From Clostridia bacterium (GTDB lineage Bacteria > Bacillota > Peptococcia > DRI-13 > SV3-B141), in assembly GCA_018433015.1 (NCBI GenBank), contig JAHDSB010000180.1:1-33956 (forward strand): a stretch of 33,956 nucleotides of DNA, read 5' to 3'. The notes under the pieces were generated by a model, which had not been told where the DNA came from, made no database searches, and saw nothing but the letters and a program-made list of their open reading frames with translations. Numbering within the stretch: position 1 is the first letter of the stretch; each line of letters starts with the position of its first letter. Made by a program: the position numbers and the translations under genes. Below, piece after piece: positions 4,850-11,781 of the stretch.

Positions 4850-4876
4850 AAAAAAATAACCCTCTCCGGGTTATTT
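4850..4876 (-). terminator. Rho-independent terminator of the cheW / HD-GYP pair
   Basis: The stem AATAACCC / GGGTTATT (4855-4862 with 4868-4875) has a five-base loop. On the minus strand it is followed by a run of U (4850-4856 are all A on the plus strand). The stop codon of the HD-GYP gene lies inside the stem. Confidence 0.85.
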
Positions 4877-5920
4877 TAGACGGTTTAATATATTTTGCTG
4901 CCGTTCTTTTTCATTAAGAACCTCATTGACAAATAAAGTTGTCTCTTCCATTAAATCCACATCGGGGAACTTTGTCAAAATGTTACCATTATTATCCTTG
5001 ATAATTTTAACCACAGGTCGGGTAGGAAAATTTTGCGGGACTGATATAACTATTCCAATGCCACCATTGTTTAGTTGAACTGTAGAACCTACAGGATAGG
5101 GAGCAATATTTCTGCTAAAAGCCTTCACTAAATCGGGATGAAAAGATTTACCACTTTCTGCTACGATAAGTTCTAAGGCTTGATAGGGGTAAAGACGCTC
5201 ATCCATATCGGGATTAGAAACTAAATTATCATATACATTTGCTATATTTGTTATAGCTGCGTACAAATGTATCCCATCGCCCTTTAGTTGTCTTGGAAAA
5301 CCTGTCCCATCAAACTTTTCGTGATGCTGATAAGCTACATGAGCCGCTGTTATGTTTAAGGAGCTCTGATTTCTAAGGATTTTATACCCGTAAACAGTAT
5401 GTTCCTCACCTGTATTTAAGCATTTCCCTATATCATGCAATAGTGCCCCCATACCTAGATTCTTTAATTTTAATTCATCTAAACCTAAGCCTATTCCCGT
5501 TAAAAGGCTGAGAACACATACCCCTACAGAATGGTTATACATGTATGTTCCACATGTGCGCGTATCTAGCAGCTGTACTAATACATTAGGTACAGACTTT
5601 AGATCATCAAGAATCTCATTTACCATATTGCTAATAGGCTTTAAGTCCAGGTCATTTTTCATCCGACCATTATCTACAACTTGTTTGAGGGCTTTAACTG
5701 TCTGAATACGCACCCTCTCATGAATTACATCTTCGACTTGTAAAGGACCTATCAATTCATCTTCCACATAGACAAAGGGTATTCCATATTGTCCTAATTT
5801 CCTAATATATCCTTTAGTAAGCGTAGCTCCCTCGCTCAATAATATACGTCCACTATCATCATATATTGTTTTAGCAATTTTCATACCCTCATTCAAGAGT
5901 TCGACTTCAATTGCACGCAT
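4871..5920 (-). CDS. HD-GYP domain c-di-GMP phosphodiesterase, soluble
   Basis: A 349-residue cytoplasmic protein with no membrane segment. Residues 1-60 form a small N-terminal domain of the kind often seen before HD-GYP domains. The HD-GYP domain follows at about 125-275, with NHSVG near 129, HD at 162-163 (LLHDIGK) and the HHEKFDGTGFP motif at 199-209. All expected metal ligands appear present, so hydrolysis of c-di-GMP is likely. The C-terminal 70 residues (GSTVQLNNGGIGIVI) form a small beta-rich tail common in this subfamily. It lies 20 bases behind cheW and has a good SD (GGAAGGG), so the two are one operon. The window has no chemoreceptor or CheA gene. Confidence 0.9.
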   Translation of the reverse strand: MRAIEVELLNEGMKIAKTIYDDSGRILLSEGATLTKGYIRKLGQYGIPFVYVEDELIGPLQVEDVIHERVRIQTVKALKQVVDNGRMKNDLDLKPISNMVNEILDDLKSVPNVLVQLLDTRTCGTYMYNHSVGVCVLSLLTGIGLGLDELKLKNLGMGALLHDIGKCLNTGEEHTVYGYKILRNQSSLNITAAHVAYQHHEKFDGTGFPRQLKGDGIHLYAAITNIANVYDNLVSNPDMDERLYPYQALELIVAESGKSFHPDLVKAFSRNIAPYPVGSTVQLNNGGIGIVISVPQNFPTRPVVKIIKDNNGNILTKFPDVDLMEETTLFVNEVLNEKERQQNILNRLK

Positions 5921-6446: not shown

Positions 6447-7310
6447 TTATACATTTCCTAATAAGACATTATATAAAAATTCCTCTGCCCCTTCTTTAGC
6501 TGCCCTCATTTTTTCCAGTGAGGTGGGAGGTAAGTCCATTTTGTAATTAGGAAAATAGCGCGTCAAATGTAACGGAATATTTTTATCCAGGGAAGAAATC
6601 CAGTGGGCCAGTTTTTTTATTTCTGTCTGATTATCATTGAGATTTGTAACGAGTAATGTGGTAATTTCTAAATGACAGTTTGCCGCAAATAATTTAGCAC
6701 TGTTTAAAACAGGCTCTAGTTTGCCTTGACATATTCCCTGGTAAAAATCATTAGTAAAAGCCTTGACATCTAAGTTAACTGCATCGATGAAGGGCAACAA
6801 CTCTTTTAAAGGTTTAGGATTTATGTATCCATTAGTCACCAAGATATTTTTCAGTCCTGCTTTCTTAGCAAGCTTAGCTGTATTTAATACATATTCATAC
6901 CACATTAAAGGTTCAGAGTATGTATAAGCTAGACCCACATTACCCGAATCTACCAGTTCTTTAGCCTTGTTGACGATCTGCTCTGAAGAAATATATTCTG
7001 CTTGAGGCTTTTCACCATGGGCTATGTTCCAATTCTGGCAATAGCCACAAGATAAATTGCAACCAAATGTCCCCAAAGATAAAACTTTACTACCCGGCAT
7101 AAATTTTTTTAAAGGCTTTTTTTCAATAGGATCTAAAGCTACAGCCGTTATCATACCATAATTCATGGTATAAAGCTTCCCCTTAACATTTTTCCTTACG
7201 CGGCAAATGCCACTAGAATTTTCCGGGATAACACAATTATGAGGACACAGTAAACATTGAACTTCTTGGGGATTCTTTGTTTTTATCCAATATAAGGCTT
7301 CTTGGCTCAA
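6447..7310 (-). CDS. amrS: AmmeMemoRadiSam system radical SAM enzyme
   Basis: Radical SAM protein of about 287 residues. The cluster motif is C-N-L-S-C-G-Y-C (Cys84, Cys88, Cys91), preceded by an N-terminal cysteine-rich segment (CLLCPHNC...GICRVR) typical of this PflA-like family. It lies directly after a MEMO/AMMECR1 fusion, which defines the family; the reaction is unknown. The frame extends to a GTG at 7325, but GAGGTG, matching the anti-SD, sits between that codon and the TTG at 7310. TTG with a seven-base spacing is therefore the better start. An anaerobic-ribonucleotide-reductase activase is less likely given the neighbour. Confidence 0.88.
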   Translation of the reverse strand: MSQEALYWIKTKNPQEVQCLLCPHNCVIPENSSGICRVRKNVKGKLYTMNYGMITAVALDPIEKKPLKKFMPGSKVLSLGTFGCNLSCGYCQNWNIAHGEKPQAEYISSEQIVNKAKELVDSGNVGLAYTYSEPLMWYEYVLNTAKLAKKAGLKNILVTNGYINPKPLKELLPFIDAVNLDVKAFTNDFYQGICQGKLEPVLNSAKLFAANCHLEITTLLVTNLNDNQTEIKKLAHWISSLDKNIPLHLTRYFPNYKMDLPPTSLEKMRAAKEGAEEFLYNVLLGNV

Positions 7311-7348
7311 AAAGTTACACCTCACTTATATTCACTATCCCTCGCTCA

Positions 7349-8773
7349 TCATGTATAGCGTTCTACTTTAAATCTCTCCAGTTCTACCTGCTCTTTCCGC
7401 CCAATACCGGCTTTTTCTTTAGCAATTCTCACTTGTTCTTGGCCACTATTGATGCCGGGTAAATCCGGCAGGAGCAAGCCTGTTCTGTTACCACGCCTAA
7501 CTATGACACCATAACTCTGAGGATTCAAGTCTTGTATATCAGTAATTTTTTCCGGTACACCCATAACATCTACTGAAATAGTCAAGTCTTCAAGTTCTGA
7601 TAACTCCAGGGGTTCAAAACGCGGATCATGCAAAGCTGCCGCTACTGAATTATGTATAATCTCATTTCCTAAACTACTGTACTGAGCTTCAATAGTCCCA
7701 ATACATCCCCGCAATTGGCCATGTTTTTTTAGCGATACAAAACATCCTGCTTTTTTCCCCAGCAATTCTTGAGTTTCTGAAGATACTTCCTCCAGCATAC
7801 TATTTATATCGGCATAATCACTTGTTAATAAGTAACTTTTAATACTTTGACGTGCTAAGGTAACCAGCAGTGATTCCTGAGCCTTAATTTTCTCCAATCT
7901 GTCCCTGCGGTCTTGGTACAATTGTGCCGCAAAATTCCTATTATCTTTTTCTCTACCTCTCTGTAACAAAGTTACTAAATATCCTACTCCAAAGGGTCCT
8001 TCATAAGATAATTCTTGAGCCTCAAGTTCATATCCATCAAAAGCTCCTAAAGCCATTATCAAGGGACGTAACCCACATTCCCCCGCATCTTCTACCAAGT
8101 CAGGATCTAGATGTATTAGTTTTTTAATATCTCCCTCTTTAAGACATTTCCTTAAAATATTATCAAAAACTTTCCCTTGAGGTGAGTACCCGGCGGGGGC
8201 ACCAGGAGTCAAACGATGGGACATATCTCCACTTATAAGCAGGACCCACCTTTTATTTAATCTAGTGAAGGCCCGTGATAAAATCCGTCCAAATTCATAG
8301 AGTTCTTCATAAGGGAGAAAGGCCATATTGATAGGAACTAATTTTCCTCCCCATTCATTAGCACTACCTAAAAAGGATAAGGGTACTACTAAACCGTGAT
8401 CTAAGTTTTTGCCAAGTTTTAACTGTTTTAATACCGCTTCATTGAGAGCAGCACAGGGAAATGAACAAGATGTGCTCTCTGCTAAAATAGCTTTAACAAC
8501 TTCTTGATCCAAATTATAACTTACTCTAACCTCTGAAGCATCAAAGTTACCTAAATCCCCTTCTAAGGGGTCTACTGCCGTTAATGTTACTGTATCACTA
8601 AATACGTTCCCATGGGGAGTTATAGCTACTATTACTTGAGGTTCTAGCTTTCTTACTAGTCGAGCCACTTCTTTCATAGCATCTCGCGTTTTAGCAACTT
8701 TTTCTGCCTCTTTTCCTCCCACTTCCAGGACTGCAATAGGAGGGTGGGGCATAAGAGCCGCCAGTTGCAGCAT
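7349..8773 (-). CDS. Fused MEMO-like dioxygenase fold (AmrB) and AMMECR1 (AmrA) protein
   Basis: A 474-residue two-domain protein. Residues 1-270 resemble the MEMO / class III extradiol dioxygenase (LigB) fold, with candidate metal ligands His10 (MPHPP), His126 (LDHG) and His186 (GDMSHR). Residues about 290-474 are an AMMECR1 domain with the hallmark LRGCIGT (354-360), then HDPRFEPL. In many genomes the two are separate genes next to the radical SAM partner; here they are fused and followed 38 bases later by amrS. The function is unknown. The ATG at 8773 is preferred over a GTG at 8782 because AAAGGG lies eight bases upstream of it. Confidence 0.88.
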   Translation of the reverse strand: MLQLAALMPHPPIAVLEVGGKEAEKVAKTRDAMKEVARLVRKLEPQVIVAITPHGNVFSDTVTLTAVDPLEGDLGNFDASEVRVSYNLDQEVVKAILAESTSCSFPCAALNEAVLKQLKLGKNLDHGLVVPLSFLGSANEWGGKLVPINMAFLPYEELYEFGRILSRAFTRLNKRWVLLISGDMSHRLTPGAPAGYSPQGKVFDNILRKCLKEGDIKKLIHLDPDLVEDAGECGLRPLIMALGAFDGYELEAQELSYEGPFGVGYLVTLLQRGREKDNRNFAAQLYQDRRDRLEKIKAQESLLVTLARQSIKSYLLTSDYADINSMLEEVSSETQELLGKKAGCFVSLKKHGQLRGCIGTIEAQYSSLGNEIIHNSVAAALHDPRFEPLELSELEDLTISVDVMGVPEKITDIQDLNPQSYGVIVRRGNRTGLLLPDLPGINSGQEQVRIAKEKAGIGRKEQVELERFKVERYT

Positions 8774-8795
8774 ATAAATCACCCTTTCTCTATTC

Positions 8796-8830
8796 TAAAA
8801 ATATCCCCGGATCTTCCAGACCTGGGGATA
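8796..8830 (-). terminator. Rho-independent terminator after the GGDEF/HD-GYP gene
   Basis: TATCCCC (8802-8808) pairs with GGGGATA (8824-8830), with two further G-C pairs inside. The minus strand continues into TTTTT (8797-8801). It lies only 23 bases before the amrAB start. Confidence 0.8.
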
Positions 8831-8888: not shown

Positions 8889-10580
8889 TTAAGCTGTATT
8901 TGATAAAATACCAGTTCCCACTAAATATTCGGTAAAGGCTTCTACCACTTCAGGATCATAACATGTACCACTATGGGCTTGAATTTCTTCCAAAGCTTCC
9001 TGAAAAGTAAATATCCGTTTATAGGGACGATTGCTGGTCATAGCATCAAAGCTATCTGCCACCCTAAGGATTCTTGCTCCTAACGGTATTTCTTCCCCTT
9101 TAATCCTATAAGGATAACCTGTCCCATCAAAATTCTCATGATGGTATTGCACAATGTCTACCGCATCACTTAAAGAAGAAATAGGCCTAATCATGTCAGC
9201 ACCCCACACCGGATGCTGGCGTATAGCAAACCACTCCTCTTCTGTTAACTTCCCAGGTTTATTTAATACTTCTCTACTCACCTCAATTTTCCCAATATCA
9301 TGCAGCAAAGCTCCCACAGTCAGATTTTGTATTTCCCATTCCCACAAGGACATGGTTCGCCCGATCTGCACCGCATAATGCATGACCCGTTCACAGTGAC
9401 CGTATGTATAGCGGTCTTTAGCATTGACAACCATTAAAAGTGTGCGCATGGAACTAAGCAATTCTTTTTCTTTATCCTGAAGAGAATTCTTAATTTCTTC
9501 AAATACGGAATAATATAATTCCACGCTATTAGTAGAAGTATATTTAGCTTTATACAACGCTTCATCTGCTTTTTGAACTAGCTTTTCTTTGGTATTAGCA
9601 TTTTCAGGAAAGGTGGCTACTCCTACAGAGATAGTAATCTTCCCATGGGGTAATATATCGGCCCCTTCAAATTTTAGTTTTTCTACCTCTTGTCTCACCA
9701 TTTCACCAACTTCCAGGCCATCCTTTCCACTGCACTTGGGAAGAATTACAGCAAATTCATCGCCACCATAGCGAGCGCTTAACCCTTTGTTGCGGGCAAC
9801 TTTATCAATTATCTGAGCTAACAAACGTAATACTTCGTCACCCTTACGGTGGCCATATGTATCGTTATAATATTTAAAAAAGTCAACATCAATCATTATC
9901 AATGCTAAACTATCATTTTCAAACTTGGCATTATCTAAGTATTTATCTAAAAAATCATAAAAACTCCGATGGTTATATATACCTGTTAATCCGTCAAGAG
10001 CAGCCTGATATTGAAGTTCTTCCCGAATTTCTTTTTCCGCTTCCGTCATGTTACCCAAGAGCCAAGCGAAAAGCCAGAGAACTCCTATAACAATAACATC
10101 TTCATCTACTCTTACAGGTTTATTAATCATTTCTAGGAAAAACAATCCTGTACTTGATAAAAAAGCCCAAAAGTAACCACTTCTAGCCCCATATTGTAAG
10201 GAGCAGATAACTATGGGCATCAGCAACAAAATTTTAAAGAAACTTTCTGATTCATAATTGAGAAAATAAAGGGTTAGAGCTAAATAAAATAAATTAAATA
10301 CGGTATCAGCTCTTTTTTGGTCTCCTAAAGACATTTTTTTCTGTAATATTTTAATAATAATTACAGCTACCGCCGGTATTAGTAATAAAATAATATTTAT
10401 GTATAATGAATTAAACAAAAAGGATGTATTATGACGAACTCGCACAAACAAAATACCAACTAATAATAAAAATACTATTTGTGAAATAAAGACATATTCT
10501 TCTGCCTTTTTATTACGAATAGATCCCTTATATTTCAAAACAATCGCTCCCAAATATTGATATGAGGTGGTATACACCAC
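8889..10580 (-). CDS. Membrane-bound GGDEF + HD-GYP c-di-GMP enzyme
   Basis: A 563-residue protein. The N-terminal 180 residues hold about six hydrophobic segments (near 31-47, 58-77, 92-107, 114-130, 134-151, 161-176). A GGDEF domain follows (about 190-355, motif YGGDEF at 271-276), then an HD-GYP domain (about 375-555, HDIGK at 427-431, HHENFDGTGYP at 480-490). Both motifs are intact, so it may make and degrade c-di-GMP. The position of the inhibitory RxxD site reads R-N-K-G, so product inhibition is probably lost. The gene follows agrD by nine bases. Its GTG start at 10580 has an AGGAGG SD but lies inside a perfect hairpin; a TTG at 10538 behind GGGAG is the alternative. Confidence 0.9.
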   Translation of the reverse strand: MVYTTSYQYLGAIVLKYKGSIRNKKAEEYVFISQIVFLLLVGILFVRVRHNTSFLFNSLYINIILLLIPAVAVIIIKILQKKMSLGDQKRADTVFNLFYLALTLYFLNYESESFFKILLLMPIVICSLQYGARSGYFWAFLSSTGLFFLEMINKPVRVDEDVIVIGVLWLFAWLLGNMTEAEKEIREELQYQAALDGLTGIYNHRSFYDFLDKYLDNAKFENDSLALIMIDVDFFKYYNDTYGHRKGDEVLRLLAQIIDKVARNKGLSARYGGDEFAVILPKCSGKDGLEVGEMVRQEVEKLKFEGADILPHGKITISVGVATFPENANTKEKLVQKADEALYKAKYTSTNSVELYYSVFEEIKNSLQDKEKELLSSMRTLLMVVNAKDRYTYGHCERVMHYAVQIGRTMSLWEWEIQNLTVGALLHDIGKIEVSREVLNKPGKLTEEEWFAIRQHPVWGADMIRPISSLSDAVDIVQYHHENFDGTGYPYRIKGEEIPLGARILRVADSFDAMTSNRPYKRIFTFQEALEEIQAHSGTCYDPEVVEAFTEYLVGTGILSNTA

Positions 10581-10583
10581 CTC
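10564..10583 (-). promoter_or_regulatory. 8-bp hairpin enclosing the start codon of the GGDEF/HD-GYP gene
   Basis: In the mRNA, GAGGTGGT pairs perfectly with ACCACCTC across a GTAT loop, and the GTG GTG start lies in the 5' arm. The AGGAGG SD ends two bases before the stem and overlaps the agrD stop. The ACCTC arm could also pair with the SD itself. Ribosomes finishing agrD would open it, so translational coupling is likely (inference). A DNA operator is the alternative. Confidence 0.6.
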
Positions 10584-10589
10584 TACCTC

Positions 10590-10721
10590 CTATTTAAGCA
10601 GGCTTTTTGGTGCTTTGGGCTGATAATACCAAGCATGACAAGCAAATACTGAACTTGTTGTAGCAATAAGCATTAATAAAGTAGAAGCCAGCGTTAATAG
10701 AGCAAACTTAATCCTGTTCAT
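10590..10721 (-). CDS. agrD: AgrD-type cyclic (thio)lactone autoinducer pro-peptide
   Basis: A 43-residue peptide immediately downstream of agrB. It has an amphipathic or hydrophobic N-terminal leader (M-N-R-I-K-F-A-L-L-T-L), a central core with one cysteine (Cys28, A-C-H-A-W-Y-Y) and a proline- and lysine-rich tail (Q-P-K-A-P-K-S-L-L-K). This matches the clostridial pattern of cysteine, aromatic residues, then QPxxPxxL. The predicted signal is a thiolactone ring from Cys28 to Tyr32 or Tyr33, with the tail removed by AgrB. The SD (GGGGAGGTGA) contains the agrB stop codon, giving coupled translation, and the AgrD stop overlaps the SD of the next gene. Confidence 0.85.
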   Translation of the reverse strand: MNRIKFALLTLASTLLMLIATTSSVFACHAWYYQPKAPKSLLK

Positions 10722-10725
10722 TTTT

Positions 10726-11310
10726 TCACCTCCCCTTAGTATTGAAAATAGGTAATAAGGTAAGGGTCTGTAAAAAAAGCCCTCCTAACATTGCAGCTCC
10801 TAAGGATGATGGGAGAAAATATGCTATACAGCTGCAAATAATTATGATCACCATGGATATACGATGAAGCCTTTTTCTAAAGCTCCTGGAGATAATTGGC
10901 TTGGCCTCTGAGTCTACAGGCGCATATAAATAAACAATTAACAATATTATTAAAACAATACATATATTTAGCCAATTAATATATGTATACTCAGCCCATA
11001 GTGGAACATTTTTCTTAATGAACCATCCCCCTAGAGGATATACGATAGCCCCCGTAACCAAGCACTGTAGCGGAGAACGGAAATGTGCTCCGCCACTAAA
11101 CTTTCTTAAGACAACTCCTGTCACAGCAATTAAGAATACCTCTTGGGGCGCTTGTAGTAAGGTTCCTACTGTCATTATCATAACAAAACCCAATACACCC
11201 AAAACAAGGCTATCCACAGCATAAACTAAGACTTCTTTTTGTTCTTCCGAATAATGGAGTTCCTGCGCTATATAATTGCCGATTTTAGTACCTAAAGATG
11301 AATAGGCCAT
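10726..11310 (-). CDS. agrB: AgrB-family accessory gene regulator protease
   Basis: Integral membrane cysteine endopeptidase that cuts and cyclises the AgrD precursor and helps export it. The 194-residue protein has four to six hydrophobic segments. The catalytic pair lies in R-K-F-S-G-G-A-H-F-R-S-P-L-Q-C, with His76 and Cys83 at the seven-residue spacing of AgrB. Its stop codon lies in the SD of agrD. The frame can extend to a TTG at 11322, but the ATG at 11310 follows GGATGTGA (one mismatch to the anti-SD complement) at good spacing and is preferred. Gap to the upstream sensor-like gene is about 24 bases. Confidence 0.92.
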   Translation of the reverse strand: MAYSSLGTKIGNYIAQELHYSEEQKEVLVYAVDSLVLGVLGFVMIMTVGTLLQAPQEVFLIAVTGVVLRKFSGGAHFRSPLQCLVTGAIVYPLGGWFIKKNVPLWAEYTYINWLNICIVLIILLIVYLYAPVDSEAKPIISRSFRKRLHRISMVIIIICSCIAYFLPSSLGAAMLGGLFLQTLTLLPIFNTKGR

Positions 11311-11334
11311 GCTCACATCCAACCATTTCTTATA

Positions 11335-11781
11335 TTATGAAAAGTATTTCTTTTTTCTATACAAATAGGTTAATAAAAAAATACAACCTACCTGAGGCAA
11401 ACCAAAACAAATCCTTAGTAAAACAGAATTTTTAATTTTCTCAGCAGTAGCTATCCCTAATTGAACAATAGTTAAATTAAAGGCGACTTCTATCAAAATA
11501 AGAATACACATTACAATAATGCTATAAGTTAGAGATTTTTTCATCTCAATTTTTGCAAAAAAGGAACATAAAATAGCTAAGTTTGTTATTAATAATATTA
11601 TGTGAATACCCGGTGATAATGGTAAAAATCGCACACCATACGCCGCTACAGCATCTATTAGCGCTATTTTTAATAGGATTCTCTTATCTATTTCTCGTTG
11701 ATTAGTGCCCATTATACAATAAACTAGAGCAATACTCTCCGGTATTCCTTGAAAAACCCAGGCTAAAATGGGTATCTGCAT
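11335..11781 (-). CDS. Small membrane protein resembling an AgrC-type sensor domain without kinase
   Basis: A 148-residue protein with about five hydrophobic segments (near 5-24, 35-53, 58-76, 84-108, 117-141) and a basic C-terminus (YRKKKYFS). The opening V-F-Q-G-I-P-E-S-I-A-L-V and the L-P-L-S-P-G-I-H-I-I-L-L segment recall the N-terminal sensor region of clostridial GHKL/AgrC-like histidine kinases. No HATPase domain follows; the frame ends cleanly and agrB begins. It could be a stand-alone peptide receptor, a modulator of AgrB, or a domain that acts with the downstream c-di-GMP enzyme. ATG at 11781 with GGAGG 12 bases upstream, a rather long spacing. The family resemblance is from memory only. 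Confidence 0.6.
   Translation of the reverse strand: MQIPILAWVFQGIPESIALVYCIMGTNQREIDKRILLKIALIDAVAAYGVRFLPLSPGIHIILLITNLAILCSFFAKIEMKKSLTYSIIVMCILILIEVAFNLTIVQLGIATAEKIKNSVLLRICFGLPQVGCIFLLTYLYRKKKYFS

Follow-up and report, generated by a model that had tools for sequence, protein, structure and literature searches.

A clostridial agr-type operon with a membrane GGDEF/HD-GYP enzyme as its candidate output

The agr locus is the textbook case of how Gram-positive bacteria sense a quorum with a peptide and a two-component system. Here we describe an agr-type locus in a 33,956-nucleotide stretch of DNA from a Clostridia bacterium (assembly GCA_018433015.1), hereafter the window, which is the whole of contig JAHDSB010000180.1. 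Four genes follow one another: SENS, a lone AgrC-type N-terminal membrane domain; AgrB; AgrD; and an enzyme in which a six-helix membrane domain, MEM, precedes GGDEF and HD-GYP domains. The analysis points to a peptide quorum-sensing operon of the agr type in which, probably, the cyclic peptide is read by SENS and MEM together and cyclic di-GMP (c-di-GMP) is the output.

Results

The four genes lie on the minus strand, spaced 12, 4 and 9 bp apart. A previous reading of the locus, made from the sequence alone (the sequence-only reading), had given the coordinates, this order and the close packing correctly and had described the AgrC kinase and AgrA as absent from the window. That description holds: in the window no kinase or LytTR gene adjoins the locus, and no SPOB_a/GHKL gene lies within it.

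The arrangement was examined from both of its ends. On the AgrB side, the host genome and its relatives (60 genomes) were surveyed and the neighbourhoods annotated with purpose-made profiles. AgrB was present in 31 of the 60 genomes, at 53 places, and at 13 of these (13 genomes, 10 families) the enzyme gene was immediately downstream of AgrB/AgrD, with one to three SENS genes preceding AgrB at nearly all of them. The remaining AgrB places had SENS with a separate small kinase (type B), a SENS-kinase fusion (type C; loci L070, L061 and L032) or a classical kinase without SENS. Since the genome holds only about 12 HD-GYP genes, finding the enzyme at 13 of 53 AgrB places is more than chance would give.

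On the enzyme side, the MEM alignment was searched in the class and in 398 genomes of the phylum, the SENS alignment was searched in the same 398, and 60 neighbourhoods were annotated. The MEM-GGDEF-HD-GYP set held 59 distinct proteins, and the genes of 56 of them came right after AgrB and/or AgrD in the same orientation; because this sample was found via MEM, 56/59 measures how exclusively the enzyme belongs to agr, while 13/53 measures the frequency of the variant in agr loci close to this genome. Of the three exceptions, two lie at contig ends (L219, L102) and one, a 754-aa protein (L217), is a true exception. Some SENS, AgrD or AgrB genes escaped the simple gene caller or were called too short, owing to start-site choice or broken frames. 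Altogether the variant spans about 31 families of the phylum sample, counted by group codes, which rules out chance neighbours; the recurrence of sensor fragment, AgrB, AgrD and GGDEF/HD-GYP enzyme in this order, which the sequence-only reading had proposed to look for, is thus found well beyond the host.

Named genomes, located by an AgrD DNA pattern, that carry the enzyme in an agr locus include the metagenome assemblies Gracilibacter BRH_c7a, Clostridiaceae BRH_c20a and Peptococcaceae UBA5318 and UBA6129. A natural broken copy was found in a one-contig genome (G001), where a gene on the opposite strand encoding 499 aa, judged transposase-like from its sequence alone, splits the enzyme gene of the agr locus (L039:6162-7661).

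An AgrA-like regulator was found within 4 kb at 0 of 57 enzyme loci and 0 of 7 loci with MEM kinases, compared with 5 of 12 type B loci (split AgrC) and 11 of 15 classical loci.

SENS had no Pfam or NCBIfam match. Proteins related to it make up residues 1-155 of the L070, L032 and L061 kinases next to AgrB (profile match E 1e-29 to 1e-23), where further helices and then an AgrC-type kinase follow, and the phylum search added about two dozen longer frames in which SENS is fused to AgrC-type (SPOB_a/GHKL) kinases. At L063, L065 and L035 SENS is split from a kinase with two transmembrane (TM) helices. The first of these is the second agr locus of the host genome, which has two AgrB genes: it runs SENS, kinase (281 aa, SPOB_a and GHKL domains), AgrB, AgrD (G000:C43, L002/L063), and its small kinase aligns with what remains of the SENS-kinase fusions after the SENS part. 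By these alignments SENS is an AgrC-type N-terminal domain that occurs fused to a kinase, split from one or, as here, alone, which bears out the earlier description of an AgrC-like sensor without kinase. The AlphaFold2 model of SENS has 5 helices (mean predicted local distance difference test score, pLDDT, 94.1), and no solved fold resembled it above background, by sequence or by structure. The positive-inside rule would place its N-terminus outside and its C-terminus inside. SENS and MEM as one duplicated domain was ruled out (hhalign probability 0.4).

The number of SENS copies per locus varies from one to five. Five precede a kinase in L079 (G002:C5), L040 has three and L049 has three SENS-like frames; tandem copies are possibly receptors for different peptides. 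In Pseudobacteroides cellulosolvens (L270:6103-6966) and in L259, L244 and L236, SENS is extended by membrane helices and a short tail, with no kinase domain, and these kinase-less AgrC-like proteins adjoin AgrD without AgrB.

AgrB and AgrD of the window are both recognised by their family models (Table 1), and AgrD has a cyclisable Cys, four further residues and a YQPxxPxxL tail. Among 51 aligned AgrDs of the same locus type, the ring position is Cys in 48 and serine in 2. The four residues after it are hypervariable (column entropy 2.7-3.7 bits, n=51), the tail Y/H-Q/E-P-x-x-P-x-x-L that follows the ring is nearly fixed and the flanks are nearly invariant. A Cys with four hypervariable residues between fixed flanks fits a thiolactone pentapeptide of strain-specific sequence.

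The active-site motifs of the enzyme are intact (RYGGDEF at 270, HDIGK at 427 and HHENFDGTGYP at 480). Its inhibitory site reads RNKG, not RxxD; RxxD was found in only 2 of 47 such enzymes with a canonical GGDEF motif and is not essential to a c-di-GMP turnover enzyme. In a set of 60 such enzymes, 59 have intact HD-GYP motifs and 47 intact GGDEF-type motifs, a difference that favours breakdown of c-di-GMP as the constant output.

AlphaFold2 models MEM (pLDDT 90.0) as six helices with a long helix leading out of them. The top structures found for it with VIA-align were human adenylyl cyclase 9 (AC9) and the Pseudomonas aeruginosa diguanylate cyclase ImcA, both at Z 11.1 (over 176 and 182 residues), with the next unrelated chains at about 6.9; as scores of up to about 13 are common for helical bundles, the cyclase-like fold is suggestive only. 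It was seen with VIA-align, and Foldseek alone returned nothing significant for MEM. In ImcA (8wcn) and AC9 (7pd4), as in MEM, a six-helix bundle is joined by a long helix to a nucleotide cyclase domain, although sequence identity is low (7-8%). Weak Pfam matches among 51 MEM members were to DUF4118 (21), 6TM_PilS (10) and MASE1 (7), and the MEM of the window had none.

MEM also occurs with a different output. A tree of 85 MEM domains (a quick tree with some long branches) requires output to have switched between GGDEF/HD-GYP and kinase 10 times or more and agr linkage to have changed 7 times; often the output was exchanged while MEM still adjoined agr. Close pairs with differing output were the two copies of L180 (support 96), L178 and L179 (98), L224 against L225 and L229 (100) and the two copies of L172 (92). 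The MEM kinases are PAS or GAF HisKA types, some of them hybrid, and in L185, L189, L192 and L225 such kinases hold the operon position of the enzyme. In L172, SENS-AgrB-AgrD-MEM-enzyme is followed by SENS-MEM-kinase; in Desulfosporosinus species, SENS-AgrB-AgrD is followed by a PAS-HisKA kinase. With either a kinase or the enzyme as output after AgrD, this position resembles that of a receptor with interchangeable outputs. A MEM histidine kinase also accompanies SENS in L175 and L228, which have no AgrBD nearby, and in L205; the pairs of L175 and L228 may listen to peptides made elsewhere.

Within this taxonomic order, a MEM-like domain outside agr loci is carried by a conserved histidine kinase of about 400 aa (G000:C188:17901-18392 and L099, L108-L114) that resembles sporulation-type kinases.

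Discussion

The mechanism that we propose is as follows. AgrB would cut and cyclise AgrD to a five-residue thiolactone (predicted as C-H-A-W-Y in the window) and release the peptide, which would be read in the membrane by SENS, as the N-terminal half of a split AgrC receptor, together with the MEM domain of the enzyme. Binding would move the long helix leaving MEM and so shift the balance between synthesis by GGDEF and breakdown by HD-GYP, and the signal would alter c-di-GMP without a kinase or AgrA.

Several points weigh against this proposal. The structure of the peptide, the SENS-MEM complex, peptide binding and the control of enzyme activity are steps that we infer. SENS matched classical AgrC sensors weakly (hhalign probability 65%), and a recognised SENS is lacking at a few loci (L187, L190, L193, L195), some of them perhaps through gene-start calls or broken genes. 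Of 28 MEM-kinase proteins, 19 occur without agr and 9 are agr-linked. A mirror-tree comparison gave a partial r of 0.41 for SENS-MEM and 0.38 for AgrB-MEM, and therefore does not single out the SENS-MEM pair. Finally, the kinase of the second agr locus might sense both peptides.

This last point leads to a different explanation, in which the enzyme is merely a co-transcribed target: a kinase elsewhere, such as the split AgrC at G000:C43, would read the peptide, and the operon would raise the amount of enzyme with cell density. The host genome does combine the second agr locus and its AgrC-type kinase with LytTR genes at four places, none on the contigs of either agr locus; as the contig breaks off where the second locus begins, an AgrA gene may yet lie beside it. 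LytTR regulators are also present in 46 of the 51 genomes carrying the variant. We nevertheless consider this explanation unlikely, because five of these 51 (G079, G102, G150, G237 and G295) lack any LytTR match and have a single AgrB, beside the enzyme. G237 also has SENS beside a 289-aa GHKL kinase elsewhere; in G079, G102 and G295 the PF14501 matches are weak (best E 1.6e-7, in longer open frames), which together with the lack of LytTR makes an AgrC-AgrA route unlikely there. The near-exclusive link of the enzyme class to AgrBD also argues against a mere target, as do the MEM histidine kinases in the same position, where a receptor rather than a target would be expected. The sequence-only reading had regarded a full agrC/agrA pair beside another agr copy as fatal to its idea: a second locus with a split AgrC-type kinase does exist, but its AgrD differs in being serine-type, and there are genomes whose single AgrB is that of the variant.

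It is improbable, in our judgement, that MEM binds the peptide alone while SENS is otherwise employed (in helping AgrB, in membrane protection or in recognising rival peptides via tandem copies). The receptor-like six-helix fold of MEM would suit this arrangement, as would the loci without a recognised SENS and the variation in SENS copy number, but fused AgrC kinases have SENS as their N-terminal domain, and SENS is retained beside MEM kinases even without AgrB and AgrD. Least likely of all is that the cyclic peptide is not a density signal but, for example, an antimicrobial or a cue to envelope state, with the enzyme responding to the membrane through MEM. There is a precedent in Clostridium thermocellum, where an AgrD pentapeptide inhibits growth and its induction is unexplained by density (PMC5322536). 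Against it, the AgrD ring is hypervariable inside fixed flanks, as in signal families, and the AgrC-type domain is near-constantly present. Joint reading of the peptide by SENS and MEM, with c-di-GMP as output, thus remains our preferred explanation.

With the agr systems (AgrBDCA) of staphylococci, Listeria and clostridia the locus shares AgrB, an AgrD with Cys, four residues and a PxxP tail, and an AgrC-type membrane domain. It differs in that the GGDEF/HD-GYP enzyme replaces the kinase domain and AgrA, the latter absent from all 57 loci, and in that SENS is a free protein. Because a local kinase and AgrA, two defining features of agr, are lacking, we regard it as an agr variant and not as a standard member. 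We know of no agr genes or SENS partner for ImcA or AC9. Quorum signals also reach c-di-GMP enzymes in Gram-negative bacteria, where RpfR is a soluble receptor for a fatty-acid signal with GGDEF-EAL and RpfG is a response regulator with HD-GYP. RpfR, the receptor for BDSF (PMC6361424, PMC3703271), and RpfC/RpfG are alike in connecting a quorum signal with such enzymes, and RpfR is unrelated to the system described here; the enzyme lacks the RpfR-type combination of a PAS/RpfF-interaction domain with GGDEF-EAL, and no PAS or EAL domain was found in it with Pfam. Agr genes without a local agrA are likewise found in systems 1 and 2 of Clostridium autoethanogenum, but these have AgrC kinases and a spo0E-like gene, and GGDEF or diguanylate is unmentioned in that paper (PMC8748961). 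In Clostridioides difficile, agr status affects c-di-GMP genes through AgrA, that is, by transcription of separate genes, whereas here the enzyme is inside the operon (PMC3754575). In open-licence papers we found no description of AgrBD with GGDEF/HD-GYP.

With about even confidence, we further propose a clostridial branch of agr in which a two-protein membrane receptor, SENS and the six-helix domain, couples a c-di-GMP enzyme directly to a cyclic peptide, the same receptor having been refitted several times to histidine kinases; this would amount to a one-step, transcription-free quorum response in Gram-positives. If true, a widespread form of agr ending in c-di-GMP would join two of the largest fields of bacterial signalling. 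Many orphan membrane GGDEF/HD-GYP proteins of anaerobes would gain a function, a natural receptor whose outputs can be exchanged would become available, and crowding could alter cell behaviour in one step. The aligned AgrDs supply about 50 predicted peptide sequences ready for synthesis and testing.

Features and neighbourhood of the locus

Table 1. Coordinates of the operon and its parts in the window.
Feature	Position	Strand	Basis
SENS, lone AgrC-type N-terminal membrane domain without kinase, 148 aa, five predicted TM helices	11335..11781	-	ORF
AgrB peptidase/exporter, 198 aa as called with TTG start	10726..11322	-	PF04647 E 3.7e-36
AgrD autoinducer precursor, 43 aa, sequence ending ...SVFACHAWYYQPKAPKSLLK	10590..10721	-	TIGR04223 E 2e-9
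Predicted thiolactone pentapeptide ring Cys28-His-Ala-Trp-Tyr32, preceding the conserved YQPxxPxxL tail	10626..10640	-	AgrD alignment
Membrane GGDEF+HD-GYP enzyme, 563 aa	8889..10580	-	ORF + Pfam
MEM, six-helix membrane domain of the enzyme, aa 1-192	10005..10580	-	AlphaFold2, alignments, VIA-align
GGDEF domain of the enzyme, aa 193-351	9528..10004	-	PF00990 E 7.7e-46
HD-GYP domain of the enzyme, aa 382-545	8946..9437	-	HD_5, PF13487 E 1.3e-40
Terminator-like hairpin with T run, between the enzyme and the next gene	8806..8820	-	hairpin scan

Terminator-like hairpins are no commoner in the region than in shuffled sequence (1 found, shuffle mean 2.0). No c-di-GMP riboswitch or other RNA family was found in the window; the genome as a whole has four c-di-GMP-I riboswitches able to read the messenger.

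The operon is preceded by genes for a copper-amine-oxidase-N domain protein and an amidase, and it is followed by those for a LigB-AMMECR1 protein and a radical SAM protein (6447-8782, AmmeMemoRadiSam-like), and genes of matching size also come after the operon in the relatives L040, L041, L045, L047, L049 and L050. The window has a second HD-domain gene (4871-5920), whose 349-aa product matches part of HD_5 (E 1.4e-12).

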